This document shows positions 1,896 to 52,799 of a stretch of 64,000 nt of DNA, piece after piece. A model generated the notes under the pieces. The model was not told the DNA's origin and ran no database searches. It was given only the letters and a program-made list of their open reading frames with translations. The stretch is from Pseudomonadota bacterium (GTDB lineage Bacteria > Pseudomonadota > Gammaproteobacteria > Burkholderiales > Thiobacillaceae). Position numbers and translations under genes: made by a program. Numbering within the stretch: the first letter of the stretch is position 1; every line of letters begins with the position of its first letter. The DNA lies in the NCBI GenBank assembly GCA_030653935.1, contig JAURYL010000022.1, positions 1 through 64,000 of the forward strand. The letters are read 5' to 3'.

Positions 1896-1968
1896 GCCCG
1901 GCCGTTCCGAAGGAACTGACCTCCCCCCTCGGGGGGGAACGAGCGTAGCGAGTCAGGGGGTCGTTTCA
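1896..1968. repeat. Intergenic repeat copy A (ACGACCCCCTGACTCGCTACGCTCGTTCCCCCC on minus strand)
   Basis: Similar string recurs at 6900-6968, also immediately after a stop codon. Confidence 0.55.
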
Positions 1969-2805: not shown

Positions 2806-2811
2806 CTGGCT

Positions 2812-3233: not shown

Positions 3234-3256
3234 TGAAGCCCGTACACGCTCGGCCA

Positions 3257-6826: not shown

Positions 6827-6899
6827 GCCGCCTCCCGCAGGGCCGTCCCAAGGGAGGCTGGCCGCCCCGTGCGTAGCTGTTGCCGCTTTAGCGGCATTA

Positions 6900-6968
6900 C
6901 AGATACGGCCTGCCCCTTGCGGGTACTTGGGGGGCAGCGAACGAAGTGAGCGTGGGGGTCGTATCTCA
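6900..6968. repeat. Intergenic repeat copy B (ACGACCCCCACGCTCACTTCGTTCGCTGCCCCCC on minus strand)
   Basis: Same layout as copy A at 1896-1968: directly after the stop codon of an msh gene. Confidence 0.5.
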
Positions 6969-7865
6969 TGCCGCTTCCCGCAGGGCCGCGCCGAGCAGAT
7001 GGAATGTGCGATTCTGGGTGCGTTCGTCGAGTAGCCGATCCTGGCCGCTCAGGTCGAACAGGCGATTGAGGTCGAGCACTTCCGCGCCGAACGGCAGGTA
7101 GTCCGCGAGCTTGCGCGCCAGCAACGCCGAATCCGGCATCGGCGCCAGGTAGAGCTTGGCCAGGGGCAGCCAGGAGAACTGGCGTTCGAAGTAGTCCACC
7201 GAGCGCTGCGTTTCCATCGCAACCCGGTCGAACAGGAAATCGCCCCCGGCGCCGCGCCCCTCGATCCGGCGCGACAACACCAGGTCGCCGCCGAAGGTAA
7301 AGGTCAGCAGGCCGCTCTCGCCTTCGAGGTGGAGCATGGCCACGGCGTAATCCTCGGGTGCCAGGCGCACGCTCAGATTACGCTGTGCGGTTTCCCGAAT
7401 GTCGATGACGGACAGCGGCAGATCGGCCTGGTGGTAGGGCTGCGCCAGTTCGCGCACGGCCGGCGCCTGGGCGGCCACCACGTAGAGCGAAGGCGTCTGG
7501 CCGGCGCGTCCCGGGACGGGCAGATGGTCGAGCACGGCGTCGTCGATATGGAAATTGAGCAGGTCTTTCACTTTCCAGCGGATGGCGCTGGGGAGTTCGT
7601 CATCGGGTACGTTGGGCGCTTCGATCAGCACCGTGTGGTAGGCATCCTGGTTGAGCAGCGCAGTGAGCGGCGCATTCTGGATGCCGGTCTCGCGCGCCAG
7701 TCGTTGCAGCAGGTCCGGGTTCGGGGATGCGCCGTCCAACAGGGCGAAGGCGGCAACGTGGGGGCGGCCCGGATCGCCCTCCAGGCGCAATGCCGCGACG
7801 CCGTCCTGGCAGGGGGACAGCACCGCGCGGTTGGGAATCTGGGCTCGAGGTTTGAACGAGAACAT
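6966..7865 (-). CDS. mshI: MshI-like (PilM/GspL-like) protein
   Basis: Actin-like PilM-type sequence, first gene of the mshI-J-K-L-M-N block. Confidence 0.7.
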   Translation of the reverse strand: MFSFKPRAQIPNRAVLSPCQDGVAALRLEGDPGRPHVAAFALLDGASPNPDLLQRLARETGIQNAPLTALLNQDAYHTVLIEAPNVPDDELPSAIRWKVKDLLNFHIDDAVLDHLPVPGRAGQTPSLYVVAAQAPAVRELAQPYHQADLPLSVIDIRETAQRNLSVRLAPEDYAVAMLHLEGESGLLTFTFGGDLVLSRRIEGRGAGGDFLFDRVAMETQRSVDYFERQFSWLPLAKLYLAPMPDSALLARKLADYLPFGAEVLDLNRLFDLSGQDRLLDERTQNRTFHLLGAALREAA

Positions 7866-7896
7866 GGGTTAGTTCCAAGCTGCCTGGGTTGCCTGT

Positions 7897-8124
7897 TTAT
7901 TTCGCGGCAATGAATGACTCCGCCTCGATATCGGCTTGCTTGAGGATGGCTCGCAGTGTTCCCTCTGGCATGTCACCGGGGTGATTGGGAATGGTCGTAT
8001 AGCGATTGCTTGCCGGATTGAGCCAGATTTCATGGGAGCCCGCCGCCTGACGATGGAATTCAAAACCAAAATATTTCAGTCGCTTGACGATGTCGCGGTA
8101 GCGGTAACCCGCAAGCCGGCCCAT
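7897..8124 (-). CDS. HicA/YcfA-like mRNA interferase toxin
   Basis: GSHEIWLNPASNRYTTIPNHPGDMPEGTLRAILKQADI matches HicA double-stranded RNA-binding-like fold incl. GSH catalytic His. Confidence 0.85.
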   Translation of the reverse strand: MGRLAGYRYRDIVKRLKYFGFEFHRQAAGSHEIWLNPASNRYTTIPNHPGDMPEGTLRAILKQADIEAESFIAAK

Positions 8125-8351
8125 CAGGTTGCCACAATCAACGGGTAATCGAAGGACTCACGTGCCGGCGGCAGTGCGTCAATGTCGGCGCCGGACTGTG
8201 ATTCGATCAATTTTTTTGCAACATCGCGGGCGATCTCGATGGTCTCCTGAATCGTGCGGCCTTGCGCCACCAGACCTTGAACCTCGTCGCTGGTGGCCAG
8301 GTAGACGTTTTCAGGCAATTTCTCGATATGCAGTTGAATCATGTGTTCCAT
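8124..8351 (-). CDS. HicB-like antitoxin (DUF1902-type)
   Basis: MIQLHIEKLPENVYLATSDEVQGLVAQGRTIQETIEIARDVAKKLIE; overlaps the HicA start. Confidence 0.75.
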   Translation of the reverse strand: MEHMIQLHIEKLPENVYLATSDEVQGLVAQGRTIQETIEIARDVAKKLIESQSGADIDALPPARESFDYPLIVAT

Positions 8352-8375
8352 CGTTTCGCTCCTTGACTAGCCATA

Positions 8376-11300
8376 TCAATAAATCTCCCGCCGAATGATG
8401 ATCTTGTCACTGCCGCGGCGTTTGCCGAAGGCGGCGCGGGCGCGTGGATTGTCGTCCTGCAAGTCGCCATCGCCGCCCTGGTCGACGCCGTCCCAGTTGA
8501 ATTTCAACCAGGCCGGCGCGGCCACGCTCAAATCCATGAAGCCGAAATTACCCTGGCCAGGCGCGGAAAACCGCAAATTGCCGTTGCCCGCGACCAGTGT
8601 CGCATTGAAGCTGGCTGTTGTTTCCCCGCTGCTGAGCTGGTTATCGGCAGTCTGTGAAAAAAATGTAAGGGTAGGCGAAGAAATAGCCGTGCAATGGTCT
8701 TCGGCGTTGCCGATCCAGCCCTGGCCATTCCAGAACTGGGCGGTGAGCGGCATCGGCAGCGGCAACAATTCGGAACCGACCGCGTTGGCGAGACGCAGGC
8801 GGCCAAAACGCATCTGGGCGTCGTTCGTGGTGGCGGCATTGCCATCGTCGAAACTGATGCCGATTTGTTGATACGGGTTGCCGGCGTGAACCACGCCCTC
8901 GCTGTCGGCGACGCTGGCCGCGAGTGTAAGGCTGGCGTCGAACGGGGCGACCGGCGCCGCGCGGGTGAAAACCAGGCCGCCACCGGCGGTGGGGTTGCCG
9001 ACACCGAAGGTGATGCTGCCCAGGCCGCCGCCCAAATCCGTCACGCTCGTCGCCGGCAGCGCGGCGACGGGAGTCACTGTGCCGCTGGCCGCGCTCCAGG
9101 ATTGGCCGGTGATGGTGGCGGCGTTGATCTTGAACAGCGCGCCGCTGTAGTTGCGGGTGGTGGCGCCGGCGCTGTTGCGCGCGGTCACGGTCCATCGCGG
9201 TGGCGTGCCAAAGCCGAACGGCTGCCCCAGGTAGCTGAAGCCGCCGCAGGCGGGCGTGAATGCCGGGGTGTTGGTGCTCACCGCGAAGTTGTCGGGCACG
9301 AAGCGGCCGATGGTGATGGCGCCGGCGCAAACATGGAAGCCCGCGCAACTGGCGGCGCTGTCGCCACTGTCGACGGCGGCATAGCCGGTATCGGTGAAAG
9401 TGGCGGAAATCGCGCCCACTTCGCTGTAGCTGGCCGTGCTGCTGCTGACCGTGCCGCCGCCGGCGCTGAACGCGCCGGTGCTGAAAGTGCCCATCACGCA
9501 GCCGCTCGCCGGCAGGACACAGGTCGTGCTCGCGCTCGGGCTGCCGTCGTAATTGCCGGTAAGGACATTGGCGGCGTTGTAGCCGCTGACCCGGATGCTG
9601 AACGGCCGTCCCGCCTTGTGCACCTCGCCGCCGCTGGTGCCGGCGTTGGCCAGGGTGGCGCTGGTGCCGGCCGTCTGCCAGTCGGCGTGGCTGGCGATGG
9701 CGGTAAGGGCGGCCGGTTTCACCGCGAAGTTGTCGGCGGAACAGGCGGTAACCGTGGCCGCGCCGGTGGCCGGGTAGCGCATCCGCACGCGCACGTCGCG
9801 CCAGGCATTGGCGAGCGCACCCATGTTCGCCGTGGCCTTGCCGGCGGTCAGGGTGACGGTGCCCACAGCCAGGGTGGTCGCGGTGACCGGGCAATTGTTG
9901 GCGTCCAGCGCCACCCCGGCGCTGCTGTTGGCGAGCAGGTCGACCAGCACCTCGCCGGTCGCGCCGCCATCCTGGGCGGTGCGACCGGCGTTGAGGGCGT
10001 ACAGGTCGAGGTTGAAGGACGTGCCCGCCGTTTTCGTGGTGATCCGGCCGGAGACCGCGTTGGCGCCGACATCGACGGCGTTGAGGGCGGCGGGGCCGGT
10101 AGACGGTGGGCTGGCGCAGGTGCGCGTGCTGCCGTCCCAGTTCTTGCCGCTGGATTCGTTGGCGTAGCCGGAGGTGATATCGGCCGCGGAGAGCGCGCTG
10201 GCGAAAATCTTGAATTCATCCAGTTGCCCGCCAAACCCTGGATACCAGGGGTCCTTTCCCAGATAGAGTGGTCCGGTATTGGCAATCGACGTGCCCGCCA
10301 GCGCCACCTGGCTGTCCAGCGTTCCGTTGAGATAGAGCCTGAGTGATGGCCCGCTCTTCACATAAGTCACATGTGTCCAGGCGTTGAGCGCGATCGGGGT
10401 CACGCTGGCATTGATCCCTTCGTTCCAGTTGGAAGTCGTGCTGACGCGGGCGTGCATCTGATTGCTGGACGGATACATCCACATGGCAAAGGTTCGGTCT
10501 GTGTTGGCCGCTCCTTTGTGGATCAGGCTCCGCCAGGCGCCGGTGAAAGTATTGGTGTGGCGCATCCAGTAGGCGACGGAAAAATCGCCGCCATTCTTCC
10601 CCACCTCGATGGCCGGGGTGTGGTTGACCAGCGCGTAACTATTTGCCGGTGCAAAACTCGCCCCGTTGCATAGCTTCCCGGTGCTGATGACGGCACCGCT
10701 GATCGCCTGGCCATTGTTCGCGCCCACGCTATCGATGATCTCGCCCGCTGTGCCGTTCCAGGAAGGTTCATCCATGCGGTATTCGGCGACGAGACTGCCG
10801 CAGGGCTGGGCCTGCTGGTAGAGCGTCGTGACATCCGTCTGGCTGAGTTCGTCTCGATAGATACGCAGATTGTCGATCCGGCCACCGAACTTGTATCCAT
10901 TCGACCAGTTGCCGCCCGCGCCGATCACCGCGCCGGTACTGGTGGCGCGTGCCGCCGGTGAGCCGCTCGATTGCAGGCTACGCAACTGACCATCGATATA
11001 GATCTTGTTGCCGGCAACCCCACCGCTGGTGAACACCGCCACCACGTGGTGCCAGCCATTGGCCAGGTCGCTGCTGGAAAAGCCGGTGACATCACCCTGG
11101 CCGGTGTTGAAGCCGAACCATCCATTGTTGCGGAAGGCCAGGTCGTAAAACTGATTGTCCCAGCGAAACGGCATGGCCCAGCCATCCGAGGGATAGCTGC
11201 CGTCCCAGTACATCCAGAAGGCCACCGTGGATTTGGCTCCCGAGGCGGTATTCAGGTTCAGGCCGCTGGCCGTGAAATAGCCGCTGCGGCTGAAACTGCC

Positions 11301-12548
11301 CGCCTTGCAGGTTTCCGGCTTGAGCCCGCTGGCCGGCGCCAGCACCTGGTCGACACTACCACCGGTCAGCAGGGCGTCGCGGCCATTGCCGGTACTGTCC
11401 GCCAAGGGGACTGTGGCGCTCCACATATTGTCGAAGCGGTATTCAGCCACCAGGGTGGCGGCGGGAGGGGGGGGGTGGATCGGGCAGGTGTGGGTTGCCG
11501 TATTTGCGGTGTTGACCTCGGCCTGACTGAGCGCGCCGTTGTAGACCTTGACGTCGTCGATGTGCCCGGAAAAGCGGTAGCCGCCGTCCGCGCCCCAGCC
11601 GCTGACCTGGAGGGTGCTTCTGACGTAGGCGTTGCCGTTGTTGGGGCTGGATAAGCGCTGGGTCAGGGTTTGTTTGACACCGTCGATATACAGCTCGTTG
11701 GACGCGACCGCGCCATTGGTGAATACCGCCACGACATGGTGCCAGCCGTTGGCCAGCCCACCGGAGGAAATGCCGAAGACGTCGCTGTTGCCGGTGTTGA
11801 AGCCGAACACCCCGCTGACCAGCCAGAGGTCGTGCACATTCCAGCCGATGGGCATGACGTTGTTGCTGCCATCCCAGTACATCCAGAACGCCACGCTGGT
11901 ATTGGCGCCCGGGCTGGTATCGACCGGTAATCCGCTCAGATTCAAGGCGGGGCCGCCGCTGGCGTTGCCGCCAAAGACGCCGTAATCACAGGTGCCCGGG
12001 TTGCCGCTCCGCGCGGGCACGTCCGCATCCATGCCCGGTAGCGGCGTGCCGAAGGCGGTGCCGTGGCGGTTGTTGCCGGAACTGTCTTTCACCTCGCCGG
12101 ATACGCCGGTCCAGGCGTCCTCCTCCAGTCGATACTCGGCCAACAGGGTCACGACCTGGACCCGGATACCGCCAGTCAGGGTAAAGGTCGCGCTGACCTG
12201 GCCGCCGCAATTGTCGCTGGAAAAGGCCACGAAACTGACGTCGTACTGGCCGGTCGTGGCCGGGGCTGTAATGGTGAAGGTGATGCTGTCGGGGCCGGGC
12301 GCGGAATGGTCGGCATGTTCATGGCAGGTGCTCACGCCATCCACGGTCCACTGGGTGGCGCCCCATTGACCATTGGCGCCGGAGGTGTTGCCGAAATAGT
12401 CCAGTGTCACGGAAGTGCTGATCGATGTGCCCGGAGCCACCCTTGTTGTCACGCTGCCATTCAGTGTTGCCGAGCTGACGCCAAACGCGGCGAAGGCGCT
12501 AGAGGCGCATAGAAACAGGAAACAGGCGAACCACGAGCGGAGCACCAT
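8376..12548 (-). CDS. mshQ: MshQ-like giant protein with three LamG/concanavalin-like domains and DUF6701-like C-terminal region
   Basis: MVLRSWFACFLFLCASSAFA signal peptide; LamG-like repeats (YWDGS...GFNTG..DV.G.SS..LANGWHHVVAVFT..GVA.N..YIDG); follows mshP. Confidence 0.8.
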   Translation of the reverse strand: MVLRSWFACFLFLCASSAFAAFGVSSATLNGSVTTRVAPGTSISTSVTLDYFGNTSGANGQWGATQWTVDGVSTCHEHADHSAPGPDSITFTITAPATTGQYDVSFVAFSSDNCGGQVSATFTLTGGIRVQVVTLLAEYRLEEDAWTGVSGEVKDSSGNNRHGTAFGTPLPGMDADVPARSGNPGTCDYGVFGGNASGGPALNLSGLPVDTSPGANTSVAFWMYWDGSNNVMPIGWNVHDLWLVSGVFGFNTGNSDVFGISSGGLANGWHHVVAVFTNGAVASNELYIDGVKQTLTQRLSSPNNGNAYVRSTLQVSGWGADGGYRFSGHIDDVKVYNGALSQAEVNTANTATHTCPIHPPPPAATLVAEYRFDNMWSATVPLADSTGNGRDALLTGGSVDQVLAPASGLKPETCKAGSFSRSGYFTASGLNLNTASGAKSTVAFWMYWDGSYPSDGWAMPFRWDNQFYDLAFRNNGWFGFNTGQGDVTGFSSSDLANGWHHVVAVFTSGGVAGNKIYIDGQLRSLQSSGSPAARATSTGAVIGAGGNWSNGYKFGGRIDNLRIYRDELSQTDVTTLYQQAQPCGSLVAEYRMDEPSWNGTAGEIIDSVGANNGQAISGAVISTGKLCNGASFAPANSYALVNHTPAIEVGKNGGDFSVAYWMRHTNTFTGAWRSLIHKGAANTDRTFAMWMYPSSNQMHARVSTTSNWNEGINASVTPIALNAWTHVTYVKSGPSLRLYLNGTLDSQVALAGTSIANTGPLYLGKDPWYPGFGGQLDEFKIFASALSAADITSGYANESSGKNWDGSTRTCASPPSTGPAALNAVDVGANAVSGRITTKTAGTSFNLDLYALNAGRTAQDGGATGEVLVDLLANSSAGVALDANNCPVTATTLAVGTVTLTAGKATANMGALANAWRDVRVRMRYPATGAATVTACSADNFAVKPAALTAIASHADWQTAGTSATLANAGTSGGEVHKAGRPFSIRVSGYNAANVLTGNYDGSPSASTTCVLPASGCVMGTFSTGAFSAGGGTVSSSTASYSEVGAISATFTDTGYAAVDSGDSAASCAGFHVCAGAITIGRFVPDNFAVSTNTPAFTPACGGFSYLGQPFGFGTPPRWTVTARNSAGATTRNYSGALFKINAATITGQSWSAASGTVTPVAALPATSVTDLGGGLGSITFGVGNPTAGGGLVFTRAAPVAPFDASLTLAASVADSEGVVHAGNPYQQIGISFDDGNAATTNDAQMRFGRLRLANAVGSELLPLPMPLTAQFWNGQGWIGNAEDHCTAISSPTLTFFSQTADNQLSSGETTASFNATLVAGNGNLRFSAPGQGNFGFMDLSVAAPAWLKFNWDGVDQGGDGDLQDDNPRARAAFGKRRGSDKIIIRREIY

Positions 12549-12549
12549 G

Positions 12550-13044
12550 TCAGCCCTCCACCACGGCGTGCATATGCCGTTCCGCGTATTCCGGCTGGGT
12601 CGGCGCGGCATTGGGGCAGGCGCCGGCGGCCGGCTGGTTGCAGGCGACGCTGGTGATGCGGTACAGGGTCACCGCCTGGCCGCCCTCGTCGGCGTTGTAG
12701 GCTGTACACGCGACGGTTGCCGTGAAACGGCCGAGCTGACCGGTGAAACTCAGCGTCTGTGGCGCGCAACTGCCGTTCCGCGCCGCGTAGATGCCCGCTT
12801 CCACGCCCGCTTGCGCCGCCTGGTAGGCGCGCGCGCCCTCCAGCTCCAGCGCCTCCTGTGCCAGCGTCGCGGTGGTCAGCCGCATCATCCATCCCGCCAG
12901 CCCGCCCAGCACCACCAGCAGGAAGATGGCGGCGGGGAGAGCGAAGCCTTTTTCAGGGGCAAGGGGCAAGGGGCAAGGGGCAAGGAACCCCAGTTTCCCT
13001 TGTACCTTGTACCTTGCCCCTTGCCCCTGCTTCTCAAGCATCAT
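12550..13044 (-). CDS. mshP: MshP-like minor pilin, repeat-encoded leader
   Basis: ...PLPLAPEKG|FALPAAIFLLVVLGGLAGWMMRLTTATLAQEALELEGARAYQAAQAG. Confidence 0.8.
   Translation of the reverse strand: MMLEKQGQGARYKVQGKLGFLAPCPLPLAPEKGFALPAAIFLLVVLGGLAGWMMRLTTATLAQEALELEGARAYQAAQAGVEAGIYAARNGSCAPQTLSFTGQLGRFTATVACTAYNADEGGQAVTLYRITSVACNQPAAGACPNAAPTQPEYAERHMHAVVEG
12954..13029. repeat. GGGGCAA-heptamer palindromic element, copy a
   Basis: CAGGGGCAAGGGGCAAGG... / ...CCTTGCCCCTTGCCCCTG: perfect 18-bp inverted ends; 4 tandem GGGGCAA units. Confidence 0.9.
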
Positions 13045-13912
13045 TGTTCACCGCCACTTCCCGATACAGGGTGACCGTTTCGCCATCCTGGCGGAGTTGC
13101 AGGTGCAAGGTGAGTTGGCCGAGGCGTTGCGAGGCGCCGGGGTCGTAGGTGAAGGCGCAGCTGGCGACCTGGCTGGCCAGGAGGCGGGAAGTCGCGCCGC
13201 CGAAGCTGGCGGGTTGCGCGGCTTGCGGGGCATAACCGGAGATCCGGCGGAGTTCGCCAGTGGCCGGATTGCAGGCGTAGGTGACCGGGGGGCCGGCCAG
13301 GTAGAAGCGTTTTCCCGGTGACTCCAGCGGCAGCGGGGCGCCGGTGGCGGCGAAGGCGAGATTGGAAACGCCGCCGTTGCTGGTGACCGTGCGCCGGTTG
13401 CCGCCCAGCCAGGCGGAGGTCGAGGCATCCAGGCCGAGGTTGTAGATCACCAGGTAATGCTCGGCTGTGGCTGTGACGGTGGGGCCGAGCACGTCGAAGC
13501 TGGTATCACTGCCGGCGCTGAAATCGAGCATGTCGCCGCCGCCGGCGCCGGTTTGCGCCGACCGGTAGCGGCCGCCGTCTTCCAGCGGCAGGTATTCCAG
13601 ATAGGTGGCGCCGCCGCTCTGCGTGACCCGCAGGCTGTTGGGCAGGGCGGCCTGGATGTCGCGGGCGATGCGCAGTAGCGCGGTATCGGCGGCGTCAACC
13701 AGCGCGGCGCGGCGCGTGGCTGTCATGTAGGCCTCCAGCGGGTGCCGGATGAACATTGCGACGATGCTGGAGAGAATGCCCACCACCATCATGACGATGA
13801 TGAGTTCGATCAGGGTGAAGCCCAGGGGCAAGGGGCAAGGGGCAAGGGGCAAGCAACGGCCGGTAGGCCGTGGGTTTTCCTTGAACCTTGCCCCTTGCAT
13901 CTTGCCCCTCAT
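13034..13912 (-). CDS. mshO: MshO-like minor pilin, repeat-encoded leader
   Basis: MRGKMQGARFKENPRPTGRCLPLAPCPLPLG|FTLIELIIVMMVVGILSSIVAMFI. Confidence 0.85.
   Translation of the reverse strand: MRGKMQGARFKENPRPTGRCLPLAPCPLPLGFTLIELIIVMMVVGILSSIVAMFIRHPLEAYMTATRRAALVDAADTALLRIARDIQAALPNSLRVTQSGGATYLEYLPLEDGGRYRSAQTGAGGGDMLDFSAGSDTSFDVLGPTVTATAEHYLVIYNLGLDASTSAWLGGNRRTVTSNGGVSNLAFAATGAPLPLESPGKRFYLAGPPVTYACNPATGELRRISGYAPQAAQPASFGGATSRLLASQVASCAFTYDPGASQRLGQLTLHLQLRQDGETVTLYREVAVNNDA
13823..13910. repeat. GGGGCAA-heptamer palindromic element, copy b
   Basis: CAGGGGCAAGGGGCAAGGGGCAAGGGGCAAG ... CCTTGCCCCTTGCATCTTGCCCCT. Confidence 0.9.
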
Positions 13913-14451
13913 CAATAGTTCGCCCGATACCCGTCCAGGGCGAGGGTTCGCCCGGCAGGGTCGGTGGTGGTGATGGTGATGCGCCAGCCGGCGCCGGCGG
14001 GGACAGCGCCGAAGGCGGCGGCGGTGACGGTGACGTCGGCGCGGTAACCGGCGAGACCGGCGACCGCCGCGCCGGAAAGGTCGCTGATGCCGTTCAGGGT
14101 GAGGCCGTTGTAATCCATCACATCGTCGAACTGGCTGCGGGTAGCGGCGTTGTAGGGGCCGGCATAGCCGCCGGGGCTGGGATTGGCGAAGTCCTTGAAG
14201 CTGATCTCTTCCAGCAACGATTGCGCGATGGCCAGCGACTGTCGCCGCAACACCGGGTCGGCGCTGGCCACGGCGGCCTGGTCAAAGGCCTTCACCAACA
14301 CGGCCAGGGCCACGCTGACCACGACCATGAACAGCACGGCCTCGATCAGGGAGACGCCTGCGGCAGGGGCAAGGGGCAAGGTGCAAGGGGCAAGGAAAGG
14401 CGGGGTTTTCCCTTGCCCCTTGCCCCTTGCCTCTTGCCCCTTAATAGACAT
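13912..14451 (-). CDS. mshD: MshD-like minor pilin, repeat-encoded leader
   Basis: MSIKGQEARGKGQGKTPPFLAPCTLPLAPAAG|VSLIEAVLFMVVVSVALAVLVKAFDQA. Confidence 0.85.
   Translation of the reverse strand: MSIKGQEARGKGQGKTPPFLAPCTLPLAPAAGVSLIEAVLFMVVVSVALAVLVKAFDQAAVASADPVLRRQSLAIAQSLLEEISFKDFANPSPGGYAGPYNAATRSQFDDVMDYNGLTLNGISDLSGAAVAGLAGYRADVTVTAAAFGAVPAGAGWRITITTTDPAGRTLALDGYRANY
14364..14442. repeat. GGGGCAA-heptamer palindromic element, copy c
   Basis: CAGGGGCAAGGGGCAAGGTGCAAGGGGCAAGG ... CCTTGCCCCTTGCCCCTTGCCTCTTGCCCCTT. Confidence 0.9.
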
Positions 14452-14953
14452 AGCCGGTCTCCGCTTCCACCGTCAGGGTGCGCACGGTATCGCCGGTGAT
14501 GGTGAGGCTGACTTCCGCATTCGGCCGGCCCTGGGAGTCGAAACTGACGCTGGCGGCGCTGCCGGCGAGGCTGACGCCACCGGGCACGTCGATCTGATAA
14601 GGCGTTTCACCCTGCGGGCCGGGCCAGGGGTTGGCGTCCGCGCAGGGGTTGGCGGTGGTCGCGCAGAGCGCCAGGCCGCTGCTGTTGATCTGCACGGTGA
14701 CCCCGGCATGGCGGGCGATGGCCAGTTTCTGGGCGTAGCGCAGTAAGCCGCTGGCGGCATCGGTATAGCCGCGCGCGGCGAAAGTGGAGGGGTTGAAAAA
14801 GCGGGGGCCGGCGACGGCGGCGAGGATGCCCGCGATCATGATGATGGCGACCAGTTCCACCAGGGTGAAACCCAGGGGCAAGGAGCAAGGGGCAAGGGGA
14901 AACCCCGCCCTTCCTTGTTCCTTGCCCCTTGCCCCTTGCACCTTACCCCTTGT
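14441..14953 (-). CDS. mshC: MshC-like minor pilin, repeat-encoded leader (probable TTG start overlapping mshA stop; ORF open to 15034)
   Basis: LLTRGKVQGARGKEQGRAGFPLAPCSLPLG|FTLVELVAIIMIAGILAAVAGPRFF; exact start uncertain. Confidence 0.75.
   Translation of the reverse strand, partial: TRGKVQGARGKEQGRAGFPLAPCSLPLGFTLVELVAIIMIAGILAAVAGPRFFNPSTFAARGYTDAASGLLRYAQKLAIARHAGVTVQINSSGLALCATTANPCADANPWPGPQGETPYQIDVPGGVSLAGSAASVSFDSQGRPNAEVSLTITGDTVRTLTVEAETGYVY
14873..14951. repeat. GGGGCAA-heptamer palindromic element, copy d
   Basis: CAGGGGCAAGGAGCAAGGGGCAAGGGG ... CCTTGTTCCTTGCCCCTTGCCCCTTGCACCTTACCCCTT. Confidence 0.9.
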
Positions 14954-15408
14954 TAACAACCAGCCTTGTTGCCGGGCTGAGAGATGGTCGGCGCGGCGCC
15001 GGCGGACGCGGCTTCGGTGTAGCTGATCCGGCAAGTCGCCGGCGTCGCGGCGCCGTTGACGTCGATGGTGGTGGTGGTGCCGGTCGTGGTGATGGTGACG
15101 TTGTCGTTGGTGGCGTTCAGGTTGGCGGCGACGACGATGCCGGCGGCGGAGGGATAGCCGTTGACCAGCGCGACCGCCTGGCCTTCCAGGGTGACGCTGG
15201 CGGTCGTGGCGCTGCCACTGACCAGATATGCGGAATGGGCGATGGCGGAGGCGGAACGCACCGAGCCGAAGATGCCGTCAGCCTTGGCCTTGCGGGCGTC
15301 GGTTTGCAGGTCATAGAAGCGCGGCAGGGCGACGGCGGCGAGGATGCCGAGAATGACGATGACCATGACCAGTTCAATCATGGTGAAACCTTTTTGCAGC
15401 TTGGGCAT
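14953..15408 (-). CDS. mshA: MshA-like major pilin
   Basis: MPKLQKG|FTMIELVMVIVILGILAAVALPRFYDLQTDARKAKADGIFGSVRSA; short normal leader without repeat. Confidence 0.9.
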   Translation of the reverse strand: MPKLQKGFTMIELVMVIVILGILAAVALPRFYDLQTDARKAKADGIFGSVRSASAIAHSAYLVSGSATTASVTLEGQAVALVNGYPSAAGIVVAANLNATNDNVTITTTGTTTTIDVNGAATPATCRISYTEAASAGAAPTISQPGNKAGC

Positions 15409-15502
15409 GACGATCTCCTTAAAACGGTTTGGCTATAGGGCTATTGCCCGTTATTACGGCGGGGGAATTGATAACTTGAGAAAAAACAATGCGTCGGCGC
15501 AC

Positions 15503-16744
15503 TTATTTTCGCGTCATGGTGGAGCCGAGATCCCAGATTGGCAGGAACACCCCAAGGGCCACCACCAGCACGATGCCCCCCAGGCTGACGATGAGGATGG
15601 GTTCGATCTGTTCCGAGAGCGTGCGGATCTCGTATTCCACATCACGCTGGTAGAGGTCACCGATCTCGGTCAGGAGTCGGTCGAGTTCGCCGGTTTCCTC
15701 GCCCACCGCCATCATCTGCAATACCACCGGGGTGAAGACGCCGGTGGTGGCGGCGGTACGGGTTAGCGCCTCGCCGCGTTCGACGCCGTCGCGCATTTGT
15801 TCGATGCGGCTGGCGATGAAGGCGTTGTCCACCACCTGGGCGGCATTGGTCAGACCCTGCACGATCGGCACGCCGCTCTGGTAGGTCATCCCCAGTCCCT
15901 TGGCGAAACGCGCCAGCGCGGCCTTGTGCACGATCTTGCCGACGATGGGCACGCGTAGCAGGAATTTGTCCCAGAGGTAGCGGCCGCCTTCAGTCCGCCG
16001 CCACCAGCGGAAGCCGATGCCGGCCAGCACCATGCCGGCCAGCAGCCATGGCCACCAGGCGACGGTGAAGTCGGAGGCGCCGATGAGGATTTTGGTTACC
16101 AGGGGCAGTTCGGCGCCGGAACTCTTGTAGACCTTGGCGAAGGCGGGAATGACCATCACATTGATTACGCCGAGGGCGATGACCAGCGCGGCGATGACGA
16201 AACTGGGGTAGCGCAAGGCCCCCTTCACCCGTTCGCGCATTTCGCGCTCGAATTCCAGGTGGTGGAACAGGCGCATGAATACATCGTCGAGGCGGCCAGT
16301 GGTTTCACCCACGCGCACCATGTTGACGAAGAAAGCCTGGAAGACCGTGGAATGCTTGCGCAGGCAGACAGAGAGCTCGCGGCCGGAGGAAAGCCCATCG
16401 CGCAAATCCAGCAGAACCGCCTGAAAGCCCTTGTGGGCGCTCGATTCGGCGAGCGAGGTGAGGGCGCGGAGAATCGGCACGCCGGCTTTCAACAGGCTGG
16501 ACATCTGCCGCGAGAACAACATCAGGTCGGCCTCGCCGACTTTTTCCGCGAAAAACTGGCCAAACAACTGGCCGATATCCTGGCCACCCTCGCCGCCACT
16601 CTTGGGCCGCGCCCCGACGATGTCGACCGGGGTCAAGCCGGAGCGTTGCAGTTCATCCGCCACCGCCGCCTCGGAACCGCCCTCCAGCTTGCCGGTGAGC
16701 AGCTCGCCTCGGGCGTTGCGGGCTTTGTAGGAGTAGGTGGGCAT
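15503..16744 (-). CDS. mshG: MshG-like inner-membrane platform protein (GspF/PilC family)
   Basis: MPTYSYKARNARGELLTGKLEGGSEAAVADELQRSGLTPVDI; GspF-domain duplication. Confidence 0.9.
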   Translation of the reverse strand: MPTYSYKARNARGELLTGKLEGGSEAAVADELQRSGLTPVDIVGARPKSGGEGGQDIGQLFGQFFAEKVGEADLMLFSRQMSSLLKAGVPILRALTSLAESSAHKGFQAVLLDLRDGLSSGRELSVCLRKHSTVFQAFFVNMVRVGETTGRLDDVFMRLFHHLEFEREMRERVKGALRYPSFVIAALVIALGVINVMVIPAFAKVYKSSGAELPLVTKILIGASDFTVAWWPWLLAGMVLAGIGFRWWRRTEGGRYLWDKFLLRVPIVGKIVHKAALARFAKGLGMTYQSGVPIVQGLTNAAQVVDNAFIASRIEQMRDGVERGEALTRTAATTGVFTPVVLQMMAVGEETGELDRLLTEIGDLYQRDVEYEIRTLSEQIEPILIVSLGGIVLVVALGVFLPIWDLGSTMTRK

Positions 16745-44710: not shown

Positions 44711-45982
44711 ATGGACATCAAAACCTACATGCAAACCCTCGGCCGGCAGGCCCGCGACGCCTCGCGCGCCGTCGCCCGCGCCGACACCAACCAGAAAAAC
44801 CAGGCGCTGCTGGCGATGGCCGACGCCATCGAACGCGACGCCGCGAAACTGCTTGCCGCCAACGCGCTGGACATGGACGCGGCGCGCGCCCGTGGCCTCG
44901 ACTCGGCCATGCTCGACCGCCTCGCCCTCAACGAGAAAACCGTCGCCGGCATGGCCGAAGGCTTGCGCCAGATCGCCGCGCTCCCCGATCCCGTTGGCGA
45001 AATGGACGACCTCAAGTTCCGCCCCTCCGGCATCCAGGTCGGCAAGATGCGGGTGCCACTGGGCGTCATCGGCATCATTTACGAGGCGCGTCCCAACGTC
45101 ACGGCGGACGCCGCCGGGCTCTGCCTGAAATCCGGCAACGCCGCCATCCTGCGCGGTGGCAGCGAAGCTCTGCAATCCAACCAGGCCATCGCCGCCTGCG
45201 TGCGCGAGGGGCTGGCCGCCGCCGGCCTGCCGGGAACCGCCGTGCAGGTGATCGAAACCAGTGACCGCGCCGCCGTGGGCGAACTCATCACCATGAAGGA
45301 TTATGTCGACGTCATCGTCCCGCGCGGCGGCAAGGGCCTGATCGAGCGCATCAGCGGCGAAGCGCGGGTACCCGTGATCAAGCACCTGCACGGCAACTGC
45401 CACGTCTACGTCGACGACCGCGCCGACCTCGCGAAAGCGGTGAAGATCGTCGAGAACGCCAAGACCCAACGCTACGGCACCTGCAATACCACCGAATCCC
45501 TGCTCGTCGCGCGCGATGTCGCCGCCACCGCACTACCCGGCATCGGCGCCATGCTTGCGGCCAAGGGCGTGGAAATGCGCTGCTGCCCGGAAGCCCTGGC
45601 CATCCTCGACCGCGCCGCCGTGTCCAACCTGAAACAGGCCGCCGAATCGGACTGGGATGAGGAATACCTCGGCCCCATCATCGCCATCAAGGTGGTGGAC
45701 GGTCTCGACGCCGCCATCGATCACATCAACGTCCACGGCTCCCACCACACCGACGCCATCCTCACCGAAGACTACGGCCGCGCCCGCCGCTTCCTGCGCG
45801 AAGTCGATTCCGCCAGCGTCATGGTCAACGCCTCCACCCGCTTCGCCGACGGCTTCGAATACGGTCTCGGCGCGGAAATCGGTATCTCGACCGACAAGAT
45901 CCACGCCCGCGGTCCGGTCGGCCTGGAAGGGCTGACCAGCCAGAAATGGGTGGTGTTGGGGGATGGGCATGTCAGAGGCTGA
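44711..45982 (+). CDS. proA: Gamma-glutamyl phosphate reductase
   Basis: [18 protein letters not shown]-like core, [11 protein letters not shown]. Confidence 0.97.
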
Positions 45983-46196
45983 AGTGGACGTTGCTGCCGC
46001 CATGCCCGCTCGACGCAACCCCATGCTAGCGAGCACGGAGCCTACAGACGAGGAATTACATCAAGTGATGCGCGAAGCGTGCGATCTTGCTATGCAACGC
46101 AAGGCAGCCACTGATGACTGGGTTCGACAACAATTGGCAACAGCAGTACGCGAGGCGAGAGAGCGGGGCGAGACTCATCGCGACATCGCAGGGTAG
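45969..46196 (+). CDS. Small charged ORF overlapping proA 3' end (possible first gene of accessory cassette or remnant)
   Basis: [75 protein letters not shown]. Confidence 0.4.
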
Positions 46197-46266: not shown

Positions 46267-47016
46267 ATGTGCGTAAAGAGGTGGAAAATCAGCTATACAC
46301 AAGGCGATCTGAATGATCGGAGACAAATTCGTGAAGCACTTGCGTACCAGAATTTCCTAGGGTCGCCCGCAGCCATCCAGTCCAAGGCTGTTGATGCCAT
46401 GCAAGGAAAGGACTGTGACGCGCTGCTGGACGGACCTATGCAGCCCGCAACTGAGCAATGTTGTCTTGGCGATAGCGTTCCCATTGAGGGGGGCACCTCG
46501 TACCTCGTGGTAACAAAGAAAAGTCTGTTTCCAATCCCCGCATCCACCACCGTTTTGGAGCCTTCCTACTTGCTCGATAACGTGTTGGCTCTCAGGAGGA
46601 AAGCTATCTTCATCAGCAACTGGACAGATGACGAAGGTAAGACCGTATTGCCGAAACCAGGCCAGGTTGACTGCGGGGTTCTGGCCCGTGAACTGGGTCT
46701 GTGCGGGGTGTCGTGGAAACGAGGCAGTGAGATTGCCATCCTCGCCTTGCAAGTGAAGCAGGCGCACAAACCTACCTGGCTGGATAGTGGACTCTCGTTC
46801 TTCTGGTACGCCGCACCTCACCGTGGCAAATGGGGACTGACGCGAAGTCTGGAAACCGGTCAACCCCGTTTGCGGGAATGGATGCTGCCCAAGCAGGATG
46901 GTGCCTTCGTCGTAGTGGAATACTGGAAACGAAACGTCGCTCAGGATTGCGATCTGCACCCGGAAAACCTCAGCGAGCGCTACTGGGAGTCCTGCGCCAA
47001 GGAGATTCGGCCATGA
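46267..47016 (+). CDS. Hypothetical protein, accessory cassette gene B
   Basis: GGAGGAGG Shine-Dalgarno-like site upstream; ATGA overlap with next gene. Confidence 0.65.
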   Translation: MCVKRWKISYTQGDLNDRRQIREALAYQNFLGSPAAIQSKAVDAMQGKDCDALLDGPMQPATEQCCLGDSVPIEGGTSYLVVTKKSLFPIPASTTVLEPSYLLDNVLALRRKAIFISNWTDDEGKTVLPKPGQVDCGVLARELGLCGVSWKRGSEIAILALQVKQAHKPTWLDSGLSFFWYAAPHRGKWGLTRSLETGQPRLREWMLPKQDGAFVVVEYWKRNVAQDCDLHPENLSERYWESCAKEIRP

Positions 47017-47867
47017 ATATTCATGAGATACTTTCCATATTGCGCGGCGAGCGCGAGATAAACCCGAACCTGGGCATCGAAGAAGATGATCTGCTTGAAA
47101 ATGCTTTTTTCGATCTGCCTAAGACGGAAAAAGACAGTTTTTGGCCAATGTTTGTCGATGCGCTGAGGCTACTGGCAGTCAACAAGGAAGGCATGCCTGT
47201 TTATCTGGCCTCACGTTTCATATACAGCCTCAGTGAAATCAAGCCACGCCAGCTACCGCACAAGAAGAACCTGTTTGATTTTTTGCTTATTGTGCTGGAT
47301 GCGGACTCCCCCGACCCAATGCGCGCGGGCGTCCTACTCCTGTTGCTCGTGCTTGATAGAGGCAATGCCGAATTCTGGAAAAAACAGGTTGCGGCCAGCT
47401 TGATCCGCTTAGAAGAAAACCAGGATACAACCTATGGCATGGCCGCTGTTGTTTATGCCTTTCTTGGCCTCAACCCGAAGGACACCATCATGGCGGAAGA
47501 TTGGGGCCGATTGTTCTTGGTCCTGAGCGAGCTGCCACGCACGCCGCGTCTTGAGTTGCTCGAACTACTGGTCGGGGTGGAAAAAGAAACCAAGGAACCG
47601 GAAAGATTGAGAGAAGAACTTGAAACAGGTTTAAACGAACTGGCCTCATCCACTAAAAGAAATATATTGCCAGAACTCAAGCCATCCATTAAATCTGTAT
47701 TCAAGACATGGCTAGAGAGAAATGATCCGCATCCGGCTATCGCCATGTTATTGGACAACCAACTTTCGGACAGGCAGCATTCTAAGAAATGGGAATTCTC
47801 CTCCCCTCGCCAAGTATTGAAAGATATATACGACGCAAGATATGAGCACAGAAAGGCCACGGTATGA
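47013..47867 (+). CDS. Hypothetical alpha-helical protein, accessory cassette gene C
   Basis: MNIHEILSILRGEREINPNLGIEEDDLLENAFFDLP; helix-rich; ATGA overlaps both sides. Confidence 0.7.
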   Translation: MNIHEILSILRGEREINPNLGIEEDDLLENAFFDLPKTEKDSFWPMFVDALRLLAVNKEGMPVYLASRFIYSLSEIKPRQLPHKKNLFDFLLIVLDADSPDPMRAGVLLLLLVLDRGNAEFWKKQVAASLIRLEENQDTTYGMAAVVYAFLGLNPKDTIMAEDWGRLFLVLSELPRTPRLELLELLVGVEKETKEPERLREELETGLNELASSTKRNILPELKPSIKSVFKTWLERNDPHPAIAMLLDNQLSDRQHSKKWEFSSPRQVLKDIYDARYEHRKATV

Positions 47868-50686
47868 GTGAGACCCGTTTCATCGCCTTTTATTCCTACA
47901 AAGGTGGCGTCGGGCGCAGTCTTGCGTTGGCAAATCTGGCTTATGTGCTGGCGCGAGAAGGGAAAAAAGTGTTGGTGATGGATGTGGACCTGGAAGCACC
48001 AGGCCAGCACCAGACAGACCTGTTCCGTCTACCCGCGCCAGGGCCGGGCGTGGTGGAGATGCTGTCCGACTACCTTGATTACCGGCGGCGCCTCAATAAC
48101 GATGAGACGAAAGCCTTATTCCAGTTGCAATTGGTGGAACGCTACCTGCGCATTGGCCAGGGATGGCAGGTGGGCCAGGAGCTTGCGGAAGAGGCCGAAG
48201 TCGGAAGCTTATGGCTGATGCCGGCGGGCGAGGTGGATAAGCCGGATTATCCCGAGCGGCTAGGAAAGTTGAATTGGGATGAGTTCTATAAAGAGCAGGG
48301 GCGTGCCTTCTTTCGCTTATTCAAGGCGGAATTACGGCGGAGAAATTTTGATTATGTGCTGATCGACTCCCGTACCGGTTTGTCGGATGAGTTCTATATC
48401 ACCACGCTGGAATTGGCTGATACTGTGGTGTGCGTGACGGGTTACAACCGACAGAACATTGAGGGGACTAAGCGTATTCTGGAAGTGCTACGAGATGACC
48501 GCGTTGTGGAGGAATACGAAGCCAAGCGACTAATTCTGGTTGGCACGCCCAACCCAGCAGAAACTACTAGTCTTTCCGAGAAACAGGCGCGCCTTGCGGA
48601 AATTGCCAACGAGTTCCCAGGGTTCAGAGATTTTAACCTTGAGCTTCCTTATGTGGCTGAACTGGCGTTGAGAGAAATTGTGCTGTGTAAAACAGCTGCG
48701 CAACTGCGCCAGGAAACCACCTACACGCGAGCAATCCAGAGCCTGAGGGCGTTGATTGATGACGACAATCCAATCAGGGAAGCCGTGCCCAGCCAGGCTG
48801 ATAAGCCTGACAACCCCTTCGCCTTGATCCGCAGTGATTACATTACCGCCGAGGAGACTTGGCGCAATTTTGTGGATCCGGCAGGCACCATCATGCAGGA
48901 CATGAACAACTTCATGCCCTTGCTGGTCACTGGTGCGCGCGGGTCGGGCAAGACCATGTTGGCACGGCGCTTCTCGCTGGATGTGCAACTGGCCGAATAC
49001 CGTGCCACAGATCGCCCCATCAAACGGGGAGATTTTCCCCGCATCGGCTTGTATCTGCGCCCTGATGCGGACTTTTTACACAGTTTCAATCAGGGCGATG
49101 AGGGACTGCGCGGGGATTTCGACCATCTGTTTGCGCAGTTCTTCGATATCCTGGTCATACGGAAGGCGCTGAATGCGCTGGAAAGCCTAGAGGGGCTTGG
49201 TCAGTGGTGTGACGAGGCCGGCTTGCTGCAAGCGCTCTATGCCGAATTCGGACACTTTGAGATCACCAAGCCAGGGTTGGCAGCCTTTCTGGAGTTTCTG
49301 GAAAGCCACATTCAGCGTATCCGCTTCTACTTGAACAATCCTTTCCCACAGAATCGCCCGGTCTTCACCCAGCCCAATGCCTTGATGAAGCTGCTCACGG
49401 AGCGTTTGCGCCGGGCCGGTTGCTTTGAAGGGCATTACTTCGTCGTACTGGTAGACGAATATGAAAACTACGCCGACTACCAACAGCGCATCGTCAATAC
49501 TCGCTTGAAACAGGGACGTCGCGAGGATGGTGTTACCTATCGCCTATTCATGCGCAGTGGTGGCCTGCGTACTCGCGAGACACTTACACCTGGACAGTTG
49601 ATCGAAGAAACTCATGATTATCGACAACATGCTCTCGATGAGGAAATGGCCTTCGACGATTTCAGGGCCTATGTCTTGGCTGTGGCCAACCACCATCTGA
49701 AACGGCATCCTTACTTCCGTGAGCGCGCACTGACCAAACTTGAAAACATGCTGGAAGACCTTTCTCCAGAGGGGGAGGCGCGCCTGCTGGCGGGTGGAAA
49801 GCGTGCACCGCCTTTGGTGGAATGGGTCAAGAAGCAATTCCCCCAAGATGCCGCCGCCATCCTGGCCTGGATGGACACCGAGCAGGAACCCTTGCGCCAA
49901 GCTACCGCCATTGTGTTGCTCAATCAGGGTAAGTCGGTGGACAAGGTTCTGGCAGCCTTCGGAGCCAACGACAAGAATGCGCGCGATTGGTATCACAACT
50001 ACAGCCGGGGTGCTCTGCATTGGCTGTGTCGCCTTTATCACCAAGATAAACGATATTCTGGATTGAATCAGTTGGTCGGCCTCTCAGGAAATACCATTCG
50101 CGTATTCCTCGATTTCTGCCACGCTATCTTTGCCGAGTGGTTGGATAATGGTGCGGGTAGCTTACCCATTCCCCACGCCGTGCAGGATGGCGCCATCCGC
50201 CGCCAGTCAAAAATCTTCCGGGAAAACTTGCGTTCCGCCGACCACTCCCCGCGTGAGGTCAACAATCTATGTGAGCGCCTGGGTCGTTTATTCGAGGCCA
50301 AGCAGAAGAGCCCGAAGCAGAGCGAGCCCGAGGTGAACCATTTCGCTATCAGCGGGCTGGATGAAGACGAACGGCGTGATCAACTCGAAAAATGGTTGAA
50401 CGATGCATGGTACGAAGGTGCGCTGCGACGCCTGGAAGGCACCAAGCAAAAAAGCCTGGAAGACCTGCGTCTGACCGATTGGCAACTGGTGCCCTGGTTC
50501 GCACCTCTGTTCAACCTGTCAACTCGGCGCAAGAAAAAACTTACGCTCAAGCCGGGGGAGTGTTACGACCTGTTTATGGGTGACCAGCAGACTTGGTCTC
50601 GGCTGTTCAAACACTTCGAACGCAAGTTCGAGGTGATGGTGCGCGGACAGGACGCCGCAGGTGGGAAGCAAGGATTGCTGCTTTGA
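47864..50686 (+). CDS. Dual NTPase: N-terminal KGGVGRS ParA/MinD-like domain plus ORC/STAND-like P-loop ATPase, cassette gene D
   Basis: IAFYSYKGGVGRSLALANLAYVLAREGKKVLVMDVDLEAPG; second Walker A LLVTGARGSGKTMLARRFSLD; second Walker B YFVVLVDEYENY. Confidence 0.85.
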   Translation: MSETRFIAFYSYKGGVGRSLALANLAYVLAREGKKVLVMDVDLEAPGQHQTDLFRLPAPGPGVVEMLSDYLDYRRRLNNDETKALFQLQLVERYLRIGQGWQVGQELAEEAEVGSLWLMPAGEVDKPDYPERLGKLNWDEFYKEQGRAFFRLFKAELRRRNFDYVLIDSRTGLSDEFYITTLELADTVVCVTGYNRQNIEGTKRILEVLRDDRVVEEYEAKRLILVGTPNPAETTSLSEKQARLAEIANEFPGFRDFNLELPYVAELALREIVLCKTAAQLRQETTYTRAIQSLRALIDDDNPIREAVPSQADKPDNPFALIRSDYITAEETWRNFVDPAGTIMQDMNNFMPLLVTGARGSGKTMLARRFSLDVQLAEYRATDRPIKRGDFPRIGLYLRPDADFLHSFNQGDEGLRGDFDHLFAQFFDILVIRKALNALESLEGLGQWCDEAGLLQALYAEFGHFEITKPGLAAFLEFLESHIQRIRFYLNNPFPQNRPVFTQPNALMKLLTERLRRAGCFEGHYFVVLVDEYENYADYQQRIVNTRLKQGRREDGVTYRLFMRSGGLRTRETLTPGQLIEETHDYRQHALDEEMAFDDFRAYVLAVANHHLKRHPYFRERALTKLENMLEDLSPEGEARLLAGGKRAPPLVEWVKKQFPQDAAAILAWMDTEQEPLRQATAIVLLNQGKSVDKVLAAFGANDKNARDWYHNYSRGALHWLCRLYHQDKRYSGLNQLVGLSGNTIRVFLDFCHAIFAEWLDNGAGSLPIPHAVQDGAIRRQSKIFRENLRSADHSPREVNNLCERLGRLFEAKQKSPKQSEPEVNHFAISGLDEDERRDQLEKWLNDAWYEGALRRLEGTKQKSLEDLRLTDWQLVPWFAPLFNLSTRRKKKLTLKPGECYDLFMGDQQTWSRLFKHFERKFEVMVRGQDAAGGKQGLLL

Positions 50687-51627
50687 TTTCAGGTTTTTCT
50701 TGCACCCCGGAATATGCCGAAGCTGCCCTTGCCGCGCGGGATTCTTGGAATTGGTTGGTGACTAGCGGGCGTGAGGCCAAGGAAACGGAAGATCGCAGCA
50801 CTTGGGGCGGGAAATACGTCTTGGAATTGCCCCGGTTGGCTTTGAAGCGCGCACGACAGGACACGCCACACCGCTTCCTATTGAAGGTGGGCCAGAGCGA
50901 GTGCGAGGTGAACTGGAACGAGCTGTATTCAACCATCTCGGAATACATTCCACCCGGATCGTCCATCCTGCTGGATACCACCCATCTGAGTTTCGACACC
51001 CTGCTTTATCTGTTGCACGCGTTGCGCGCCTGCCAGCCAGCCGCTCTGGACTGCCTGTATGTTGCGCCGGTCGATTTCCACGAGATAGAAACTGACCCAT
51101 TGGCCGTTCACGACACCCTGCCCATCGGCCAACCCAAGGGCTATGTCGCACTCACTACCGAGGAGACCCGTGCCCACAGCCGCCATATCGTGCTGTTGGG
51201 CTTCGATAAGGGTCGCGCCTGGAAATTCATCCAGCGCTATGACTGGGATGAGGCGCATCTCCACTTGGTTGTGGGTGATCCTCCGTTTGTCGAGAACGGC
51301 GCAGCCATTGCACTCGATGCCTGCCAACCCTGGCTGGAACCCTTCCAAAGGCGGTTTCCTGACCATATTCATGCGCTGGATGCCCGCGACCCCAATCAAG
51401 TGCATGATTTTCTTTCAAGACAATTGAAAGAGGCGAACTGGATCGACATCGTGCCGCTTGGTCCCAAGCCCATGCTGCTGGGTGTGCTTGCGTTCTATTT
51501 CGGCCTGTCCGACCAGGAGCGTGCACGGGTACGCTTGCTGTATGACTTTTCCGAACAACGCTCGCGCCGGTGCGGCGGCGTCCAGAGGATTTATTCCTGG
51601 GACTGCAACGGTTTCTATAGTCCATGA
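50683..51627 (+). CDS. Hypothetical Rossmann-like protein, cassette gene E (probable TTG start)
   Basis: LISGFSCTPEYAEAALAARDSW...SILLDTTHLSFDTLLYLLHALRACQP...LDCLYVAP; TTGA overlap with D stop, ATGA overlap with F. Confidence 0.65.
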   Translation: MISGFSCTPEYAEAALAARDSWNWLVTSGREAKETEDRSTWGGKYVLELPRLALKRARQDTPHRFLLKVGQSECEVNWNELYSTISEYIPPGSSILLDTTHLSFDTLLYLLHALRACQPAALDCLYVAPVDFHEIETDPLAVHDTLPIGQPKGYVALTTEETRAHSRHIVLLGFDKGRAWKFIQRYDWDEAHLHLVVGDPPFVENGAAIALDACQPWLEPFQRRFPDHIHALDARDPNQVHDFLSRQLKEANWIDIVPLGPKPMLLGVLAFYFGLSDQERARVRLLYDFSEQRSRRCGGVQRIYSWDCNGFYSP

Positions 51628-52799
51628 ACCCCTGGGCACAGTTTTACACACCGCAATCCGCCGGCCAGTTGCTGGTGAGCGCCATGCACAGCAAGCAGGC
51701 CGATACGGTGGTGGACATCGGTGTAGGTAGCGGTCAGTTGTTGCGCGCAGCCCGTGCGCGTTGGCAAGACGCTCGCTTGTATGCGGCTGATATTGATCAC
51801 CAGCATGTTGAAGCGGCGCGAAATTGTTTTCCCGAGGCCGTTTGCCGCAAGCTGGATGCGCTACGGATTTGTCTGCCGGCCAAACTCGGCCTGGAGGAAG
51901 GCCAAGCCGACGTGGCGGTTTGCAATCCGCCCTATCTGCCAGTCACCGATTTACCCGAGATTCACGACATCCTGCGGGCGGCGGATTTGCATGACTGCTT
52001 CTCCGCAAAGCGGGTCACCACGGAAATCATCTTTATCGCCCAGAACCTACGCCTTCTGCGCCCCGGCGGCGAGCTGGCGGTGATCGTTCCGGATGGTCTG
52101 GCAACTCATAGCCACTATGCCGAGTTGCGCCAGGCTTTGTGTGAGCGTCACGGTTTGTACCGAGTCATCCAATTGCCGGATCGTTTCTTTGCGGGGACGG
52201 AAGCACGCACTCACATTTTTTATCTGCGCAAGCAGGGAAAGCCTGTCAGCACAATTCGTTTGGTGGGGGCAACGCCAAATGGCGATCTCGCGGAGGAGGT
52301 AGCCATCGTTCCCGACTCCGCGCGGACACGCTTGGATTACAGTTTTTATGCCCATGCGGTGAGTGCGCCACTCGCGACCATCACCCTGCGTGATTTGGGC
52401 GCCGAGATCGTGCGCGGAATGTTTACCCATCAGGAGTGCAGAAAGCAGGCCTTCCCTTTTTTTCATACGACCGATTTCAAGCGTTTTCCCGATGGTCGGG
52501 TTATCTATCCCGGACACGTCGATTACCCCGAACGCTGGGGGGCACGGGCTGGGGACATCCTGGTGCCGCGTGTCGGCGCGCGTTGCCTGCACTATACGGC
52601 CAAGGTGGTGTCCGGACAGCCGGTGTTCACCGATTGCGTGTATCGCATCCGTGTGGAGGCGCGTTGGCGCCAAGCTGTTTGGAATGCCTTGTCTTCTGAG
52701 GCAGGTAGGAATTGGCGTATACAAGCGGCACATGGCGTCTGCGCGCGGGTGCTGGGAAAAGAAGTGTTGCTCAACTTCCCTACCCGTGTGGCTGAATGA
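51624..52799 (+). CDS. N6-adenine DNA methyltransferase with C-terminal specificity-like region, cassette gene F
   Basis: VVDIGVGSGQLLRAA SAM motif; DVAVCNPPYLPV catalytic NPPY; HsdS-like C-terminal region GDILVPRVGARCLHYTAKV. Confidence 0.85.
   Translation: MNPWAQFYTPQSAGQLLVSAMHSKQADTVVDIGVGSGQLLRAARARWQDARLYAADIDHQHVEAARNCFPEAVCRKLDALRICLPAKLGLEEGQADVAVCNPPYLPVTDLPEIHDILRAADLHDCFSAKRVTTEIIFIAQNLRLLRPGGELAVIVPDGLATHSHYAELRQALCERHGLYRVIQLPDRFFAGTEARTHIFYLRKQGKPVSTIRLVGATPNGDLAEEVAIVPDSARTRLDYSFYAHAVSAPLATITLRDLGAEIVRGMFTHQECRKQAFPFFHTTDFKRFPDGRVIYPGHVDYPERWGARAGDILVPRVGARCLHYTAKVVSGQPVFTDCVYRIRVEARWRQAVWNALSSEAGRNWRIQAAHGVCARVLGKEVLLNFPTRVAE

Follow-up and report, generated by a model that had tools for sequence, protein, structure and literature searches.

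Which kind of system is encoded by five overlapping genes that lie between the housekeeping genes proA and nadD of a bacterium of the Thiobacillaceae? The window analysed here, i.e., the whole stretch of 64,000 nucleotides of contig JAURYL010000022.1 (assembly GCA_030653935.1, positions 1 to 64,000), carries these genes, named B to F, at positions 46267-52799 of the forward strand. A first-pass annotation had described them as a candidate defence-like operon belonging to no named system, and its coordinates and open reading frames agree with ours. The operon is identified as a subtype of a predicted conflict system composed of an ORC-CDC6-like ATPase, a CARF6 protein and a DNA methylase, all core features tested being in agreement with this assignment. 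What is new about it is the module that occupies the partner slot of this core, namely a KGGVGR-type ATPase domain together with the proteins B and C, while the families PF24389, PF24390 and PF24391 as well as PADLOC CARF6 had already been modelled. The idea of an unrecognised system hence held in part: tests for BREX and type I restriction-modification failed, but the C-terminal half of D, E and F form a recurring predicted core for which Pfam and PADLOC models exist. Among the models of Pfam 2025, NCBIfam June 2026 and PADLOC 2023, none covers the KGGVGR-ORC fusion as a whole and none names the system.

Gene D (47864-50686) encodes a protein of 940 amino acids, the two NTPase domains of which had been predicted correctly. 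Its C-terminal part (amino acids 317-895, positions 48812-50548) matches the Pfam family PF24389 of ORC-CDC6-like AAA+ ATPases with an E-value of 5.8e-96 and 323 bits against a cut-off of 27, whereby both the Walker A and the Walker B motif are retained. The N-terminal ParA/MinD-like ATPase domain (47864-48490) matches the NCBIfam model NF047398 of KGGVGR-motif AAA proteins at amino acids 5-209 (E 2e-42, above cut-off) and retains the signature lysine, the DxDLEAPG and DS/ARTG-type motifs and the serine after the P-loop. Here, the usual P-loop lysine is replaced by an arginine (Arg18), which is found in all nine copies compared, and 52 residues of the domain are invariant across nine loci. Gene E (50683-51627, 314 amino acids), starting with a TTG codon that overlaps D, was earlier labelled Rossmann-like, a label which was not upheld, as the protein matches PADLOC CARF6 (E 6e-20) and its relatives in the equivalent position match CARF6 models with E-values from 1e-38 to 1e-220. 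A Protein Data Bank (PDB) sequence search with E returned neither a CARF match nor any homologue, and E is thus a predicted CARF6 protein by the PADLOC models alone. Within an alignment of 26 sequences, R38, G173, R178 and D288 are invariant and T100, P258, G260 and K262 nearly so. Gene F (51624-52799, 391 amino acids) was correctly recognised as an N6-adenine DNA methylase with an NPPY motif: it matches N6_Mtase (PF02384, E 1e-15), its amino acids 5-385 match the PADLOC model MTase_II end to end (E 5.6e-70), and type I M subunits are matched in the PDB. The C-terminal half of F, which contains the motif GDILVPRVG...RCL, looks like a DNA-specificity domain. The operon hence combines the features of the general kind, i.e., a PF24389 ORC domain, a CARF6 gene overlapping the ORC gene by 4 nucleotides and a methylase within the operon.

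That B to F constitute one unit and not a chance cluster was assumed earlier from their junctions and is documented by their distribution. The 4-nucleotide stop/start overlaps reported for B/C, C/D, D/E and E/F (ATGA, ATGA, TTGA and ATGA) are all present, and a further one between F and nadD (52796-52799), which had been missed, marks the right boundary of the insert and is the same in the closest copy, locus L044 of a Sulfuricellaceae metagenome-assembled genome, with D being 94% identical. The overlapping arrangement recurs in L044 and, judged from coordinates, in the Ferrovum locus L045. A profile of the ORC domain was scanned against 84,980 genomes, which yielded 51 loci, each scored with per-gene profiles; being fetched by the ORC domain, these loci measure its companions and not how often B or C stand alone. 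The ORC gene is directly followed by the CARF6 gene in 50 of the 51, and 48 have a methylase homologous to F in the vicinity; in L050, F was not detected. The KGGVGR-ORC fusion was found in 7/51 loci, all of which carry B and C and none a phosphoribosyltransferase (PRTase), and a PRTase-CE gene precedes ORC in 41/51, with KGGVGR, B and C in none of them. Among the 51 loci, B, C and KGGVGR are thus either all present or all absent. Three loci are interrupted by contig ends, among them L046; its missing 5' part was located on a second contig from that genome (L145) and holds B, C and the KGGVGR-bearing start of D. Counting this split operon as one, linkage of B to F was observed in eight further loci, all proteobacterial, although F escaped detection in one of them (L050) and E is missing from the split one. 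In the ORC-domain tree the KGGVGR type forms a single clade (100/100), separate from the PRTase type.

Relatives more distant from the window document what is exchanged in this system. Within distant PF24389 loci, the slot before ORC is occupied by HD-CE (L037, L039), by PRTase-CE (L040, L041, L043) or by a calcineurin-like phosphoesterase (L038), and in L042 a protein-kinase-like domain is fused to ORC itself. CARF6 follows ORC in six of these seven loci (L037-L041, L043), and the 247-amino-acid gene after ORC in L042 gave no CARF6 match. As the content of the slot varies while ORC-CARF6 stays, the partner slot is the variable and ORC-CARF6 the constant part. Compared with the PRTase-CE loci, the window shares the direct succession of ORC and CARF6, a nearby methylase of the F family and compact, overlapping genes, but it lacks the PRTase (PF24390) before ORC, has the KGGVGR domain fused to the ORC N-terminus and B and C added, and belongs to a rarer clade. 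With the HD-CE (PF24391) and calcineurin-type loci it has in common the ORC-CARF6 core preceded by another enzyme, yet it carries B, C and KGGVGR instead, HD-CE matching none of B, C and D, and the two HD loci possess C5 and not N6 methylases. Membership of the PRTase-CE and HD-CE subtypes was hence rejected. The PRTase retains the phosphoribosyl-pyrophosphate-loop motif VDDFLGTG and matches the PRTase models of retron type III-A. The consecutive accessions PF24389-PF24391 suggest a common source in which both the PRTase and the HD type were described; a literature search, beyond the reach of which lay the published CARF census, found no paper describing PRTase-CE, KGGVGR or CARF6 systems. As a side observation, the HD-CE/ORC/CARF6 set of L039 has as neighbours at 6077-9001 a C5 cytosine methylase and PDC-M33A, a PADLOC candidate matched with E 5e-191, which hints at PDC-M33 belonging to the HD type.

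Genes B (46267-47016, 249 amino acids) and C (47013-47867, 284 amino acids) had been left as unknowns, C being helical, and indeed neither matched any family in Pfam, NCBIfam or PADLOC. Of the checks proposed earlier, profile searches placed E in CARF6 and AlphaFold2 placed C among helical-repeat proteins, whereas B resisted assignment. The alpha+beta protein B, modelled by AlphaFold2 with a predicted local distance difference test (pLDDT) score of 52, possesses a conserved C-terminal motif (KPxWLDxGLxFYxxxxP...GxTRxLxTGxxxxREW), and comparison with its homologues from eight other KGGVGR-type loci identified 11 invariant residues, including K168, R193, E204 and W205. A direct search of 378 genomes of the phylum returned the window copy alone and no B outside the system. 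A relation of B to the MbcT-MbcA toxin-antitoxin pair, its best PDB fold match, was considered and rejected as too weak (E 0.59, TM score 0.26). The fast-evolving, repeat-like protein C was modelled as all helices with a mean pLDDT of 68 and about 90 over most of its first 150 residues; fold searches gave weak HEAT/ARM-type matches, none at E<=0.001, and C is, by this model, a helical-repeat protein of no specific relative. Neither protein was accepted as a remote PRTase, hhalign probabilities against the PRTase profile being 0.1 and 0.4% for B and C, respectively. As the active part, B is favoured over C because of its invariant polar residues K168, R193 and E204, and C is disfavoured because it has almost no invariant polar residues and a helical-repeat fold.

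Likenesses to other named systems were weighed against these findings. BREX combines a methylase with a large AAA+ ATPase of the STAND/ORC-Cdc6 kind (PMC12839542), and the window likewise possesses a methylase and a large ORC/CDC6-type AAA+ ATPase. However, PglZ, BrxC, BrxA, BrxL and PglX all remained without a match above cut-off among the five proteins, PglZ and BrxC/PglY were not found at all, and the PglX similarity is that of a generic methylase core. Concerning MADS, F locally resembles MAD2 and the ORC domain is weakly similar to mad8, but the NCBIfam MAD2 model yielded 40.8 bits against a cut-off of 720 and the operon contains no other MADS gene. The PRTase models of retron type III-A match the slot PRTase of the main type and not the window proteins, which comprise neither a PRTase nor a reverse-transcriptase match. 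In addition, no characterised non-defence pathway was matched.

Considering the genomic neighbourhood of the relatives, the earlier idea of a defence-like operon is largely supported, though the operon varies a predicted kind that recurs elsewhere, and immunity itself is what we infer. The ORC domain was found in 151 plasmid records, 129 of them from Klebsiella and 136 typed as conjugative, and in two Acinetobacter phage records; none was confirmed in the viral contigs searched with the ORC profile. Next to the PRTase-type locus L068 of Alishewanella jeotgali lies a TniQ gene (4764-6275), suggesting that this copy is transposon cargo, and the candidate defence genes Mokosh-like and PDC-S28 adjoin L065 and L075. 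The Ferrovum copy L045, which is of the window type, adjoins the conjugation genes TrbI and CagX. As the PRTase type resides on conjugative plasmids, in two phage records and beside TniQ in one locus, a defence role is likely, and the operon probably represents a modular anti-invader system, in which a fixed core of ORC/CDC6-like ATPase, CARF6 protein and methylase is combined with an exchangeable executing part encoded before the ATPase. The suggested reaction sequence assumes that F, as known for its family, would methylate adenines within a short motif chosen by its C-terminal half and thereby mark host DNA. Judged from its fold, the ORC half of D may load on unmarked or actively replicating foreign DNA, whereby its ATPase state would change. 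As suggested by its CARF nature, E would bind a nucleotide ligand and license or reset the response, while the KGGVGR half of D might serve as ParA-like switch which relays the signal to C and B. Finally, C as helical scaffold and B as putative effector would together stop the replication of the invader or the cell. Besides the defence role, the direction of the signal and the effector function of B are the parts which we infer. A more specific idea, namely that B is an unrecognised effector fold, switched on by an arginine-P-loop ParA-like ATPase which is fused to a DNA-loading ORC/CDC6 ring, whereby the ring would sense invader DNA and B would execute the response under CARF control, is put forward tentatively.

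Several observations weigh against an anti-invader role. B has no recognisable fold at its low pLDDT of 52, and its effector label derives from position and conservation only. None of the window-type loci was itself seen in a defence island, the window operon being flanked by housekeeping genes, and the methylase of the PRTase type often lies on the opposite strand or at the other flank of the core, which renders its link looser. The loci compared show the widespread plasmid-borne ORC/CARF6/methylase system, a predicted one, to be a platform for exchangeable modules of putative executing function, with a rare subtype in which module exchange includes the fusion of two NTPase switches. This makes sensing by the ORC/CDC6-like ATPase, CARF6 binding outside CRISPR and the role of the KGGVGR ATPase questions accessible to test, and since many conjugative plasmids of Klebsiella carry the main type, the kind also matters for the ecology of plasmids and phages.

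Among the alternatives, an unusual restriction-modification system survives best, in which F would be the methylase and D, B and C would act as an ATP-dependent complex directly on unmethylated DNA, by cutting or blocking it, with neither suicide nor dormancy involved. F being a complete N6 methylase, one half of which is specificity-like, and the second ATPase domain of D being intact would fit such a function. However, no nuclease family was matched by B, C, D or E, and PRTase, HD and phosphoesterase proteins in the sister slots suit nucleotide chemistry better than the cutting of DNA; as a classical type I system the operon fails since the HsdR motor-nuclease and HsdS are absent among the five proteins and F has its own specificity-like half. 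This explanation is therefore considered unlikely. Improbable is an auxiliary branch of type III CRISPR immunity, in which E would read cyclic oligoadenylates made by a Cas10 elsewhere in the genome and trigger D, B and C. While E is a predicted CARF6 protein and a Cas10-like protein of 917 amino acids (palm-domain match, E 1e-31) is indeed encoded by contig C30 of the window's genome, this contig is a different one, cas10 is not found beside E, and the conserved partner of E is ORC and not Cas10. As the plasmid relatives are mostly from Klebsiella, which, as far as is known, rarely carries type III CRISPR, such coupling would not be a general rule. Very improbable is the view that the operon is not for defence but controls the replication or partition of a mobile element. 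The textbook combination for replication initiation and segregation is indeed ORC/CDC6 with a ParA-like domain, and many relatives reside on plasmids. However, relatives come from many assemblies with several on chromosome-sized contigs, the copy in the window is enclosed by housekeeping genes, the main type has a PRTase in place of the ParA-like part, and CARF6 is not a replication protein.

The maintenance of the five genes was addressed by comparison with L044. Ratios of nonsynonymous to synonymous substitution rates (dN/dS) of 0.20 for B, 0.18 for C, 0.065 for D, 0.14 for E and 0.096 for F point to purifying selection on all of them, and therefore B to F are all real, maintained proteins. 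Their GC content of 48-59%, compared with 63% for the window, is in line with acquisition. D occurs in one of the 23 genomes of the window's genus; in sister genomes there is next to nothing between proA and nadD, or else a small gene with a zeta toxin behind it (in L096 Zeta_toxin PF06414, E 8e-9, directly after the small gene; the sites span 662-1484 in L096 and 2165-2981 in L097). The window retains this small gene as gene A (45963-46196, forward strand), a resident outside the system with 62-77% identity to its sister counterparts, lacks the toxin and carries B to F in the toxin's place, identifying proA-nadD as a variable site of this genus. At its start, the L044 contig holds the final third of nadD and then a 3' fragment of proA (1-340), and it ends within the first part of a second nadD (7258-7639), so that the operon may be flanked by two copies of nadD or exist in circular form; the contigs of genome G757 are broken at identical nadD residues (127/143).

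Some further observations concern individual relatives. The truncated F of L046 directly follows D (1560-1620), E and the start of F being missing, so this copy is decayed or misassembled. In the window's genome (G000), the stretch of contig C30 around positions 1774-15512 (L144) constitutes a type III CRISPR-like locus with CARF-like and Cas1-like proteins recognised by eye only; no direct-repeat array was found in the stretch examined, and no SMODS cyclase in the genome. A 90-kb Acinetobacter phage record (CAKLQF020000018.1) encodes at 65043-66737 an ORC-CDC6-like protein that is distantly related to D (identity 23%, coverage 92%). On plasmids, L134 (2511-7562 of the Klebsiella conjugative plasmid OW959907.1) and L136 comprise a methylase, a PRTase-sized gene, ORC and a third gene in a row, for which the annotation is mainly hypothetical or N-6 methylase; the gene order of L135 is identical, ORC carrying no annotation there, and the last gene is CARF6 in L134 and L135. 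In Klebsiella plasmid records the annotation reads hypothetical or, for the methylase, tRNA methyltransferase. Finally, in the Sulfuritalea locus L051 (1-1749 and 8462-9421) B to F directly follow clpB and are succeeded by a second, partial 3' copy of clpB and then a PIN-domain gene, as if the insertion had copied its target.

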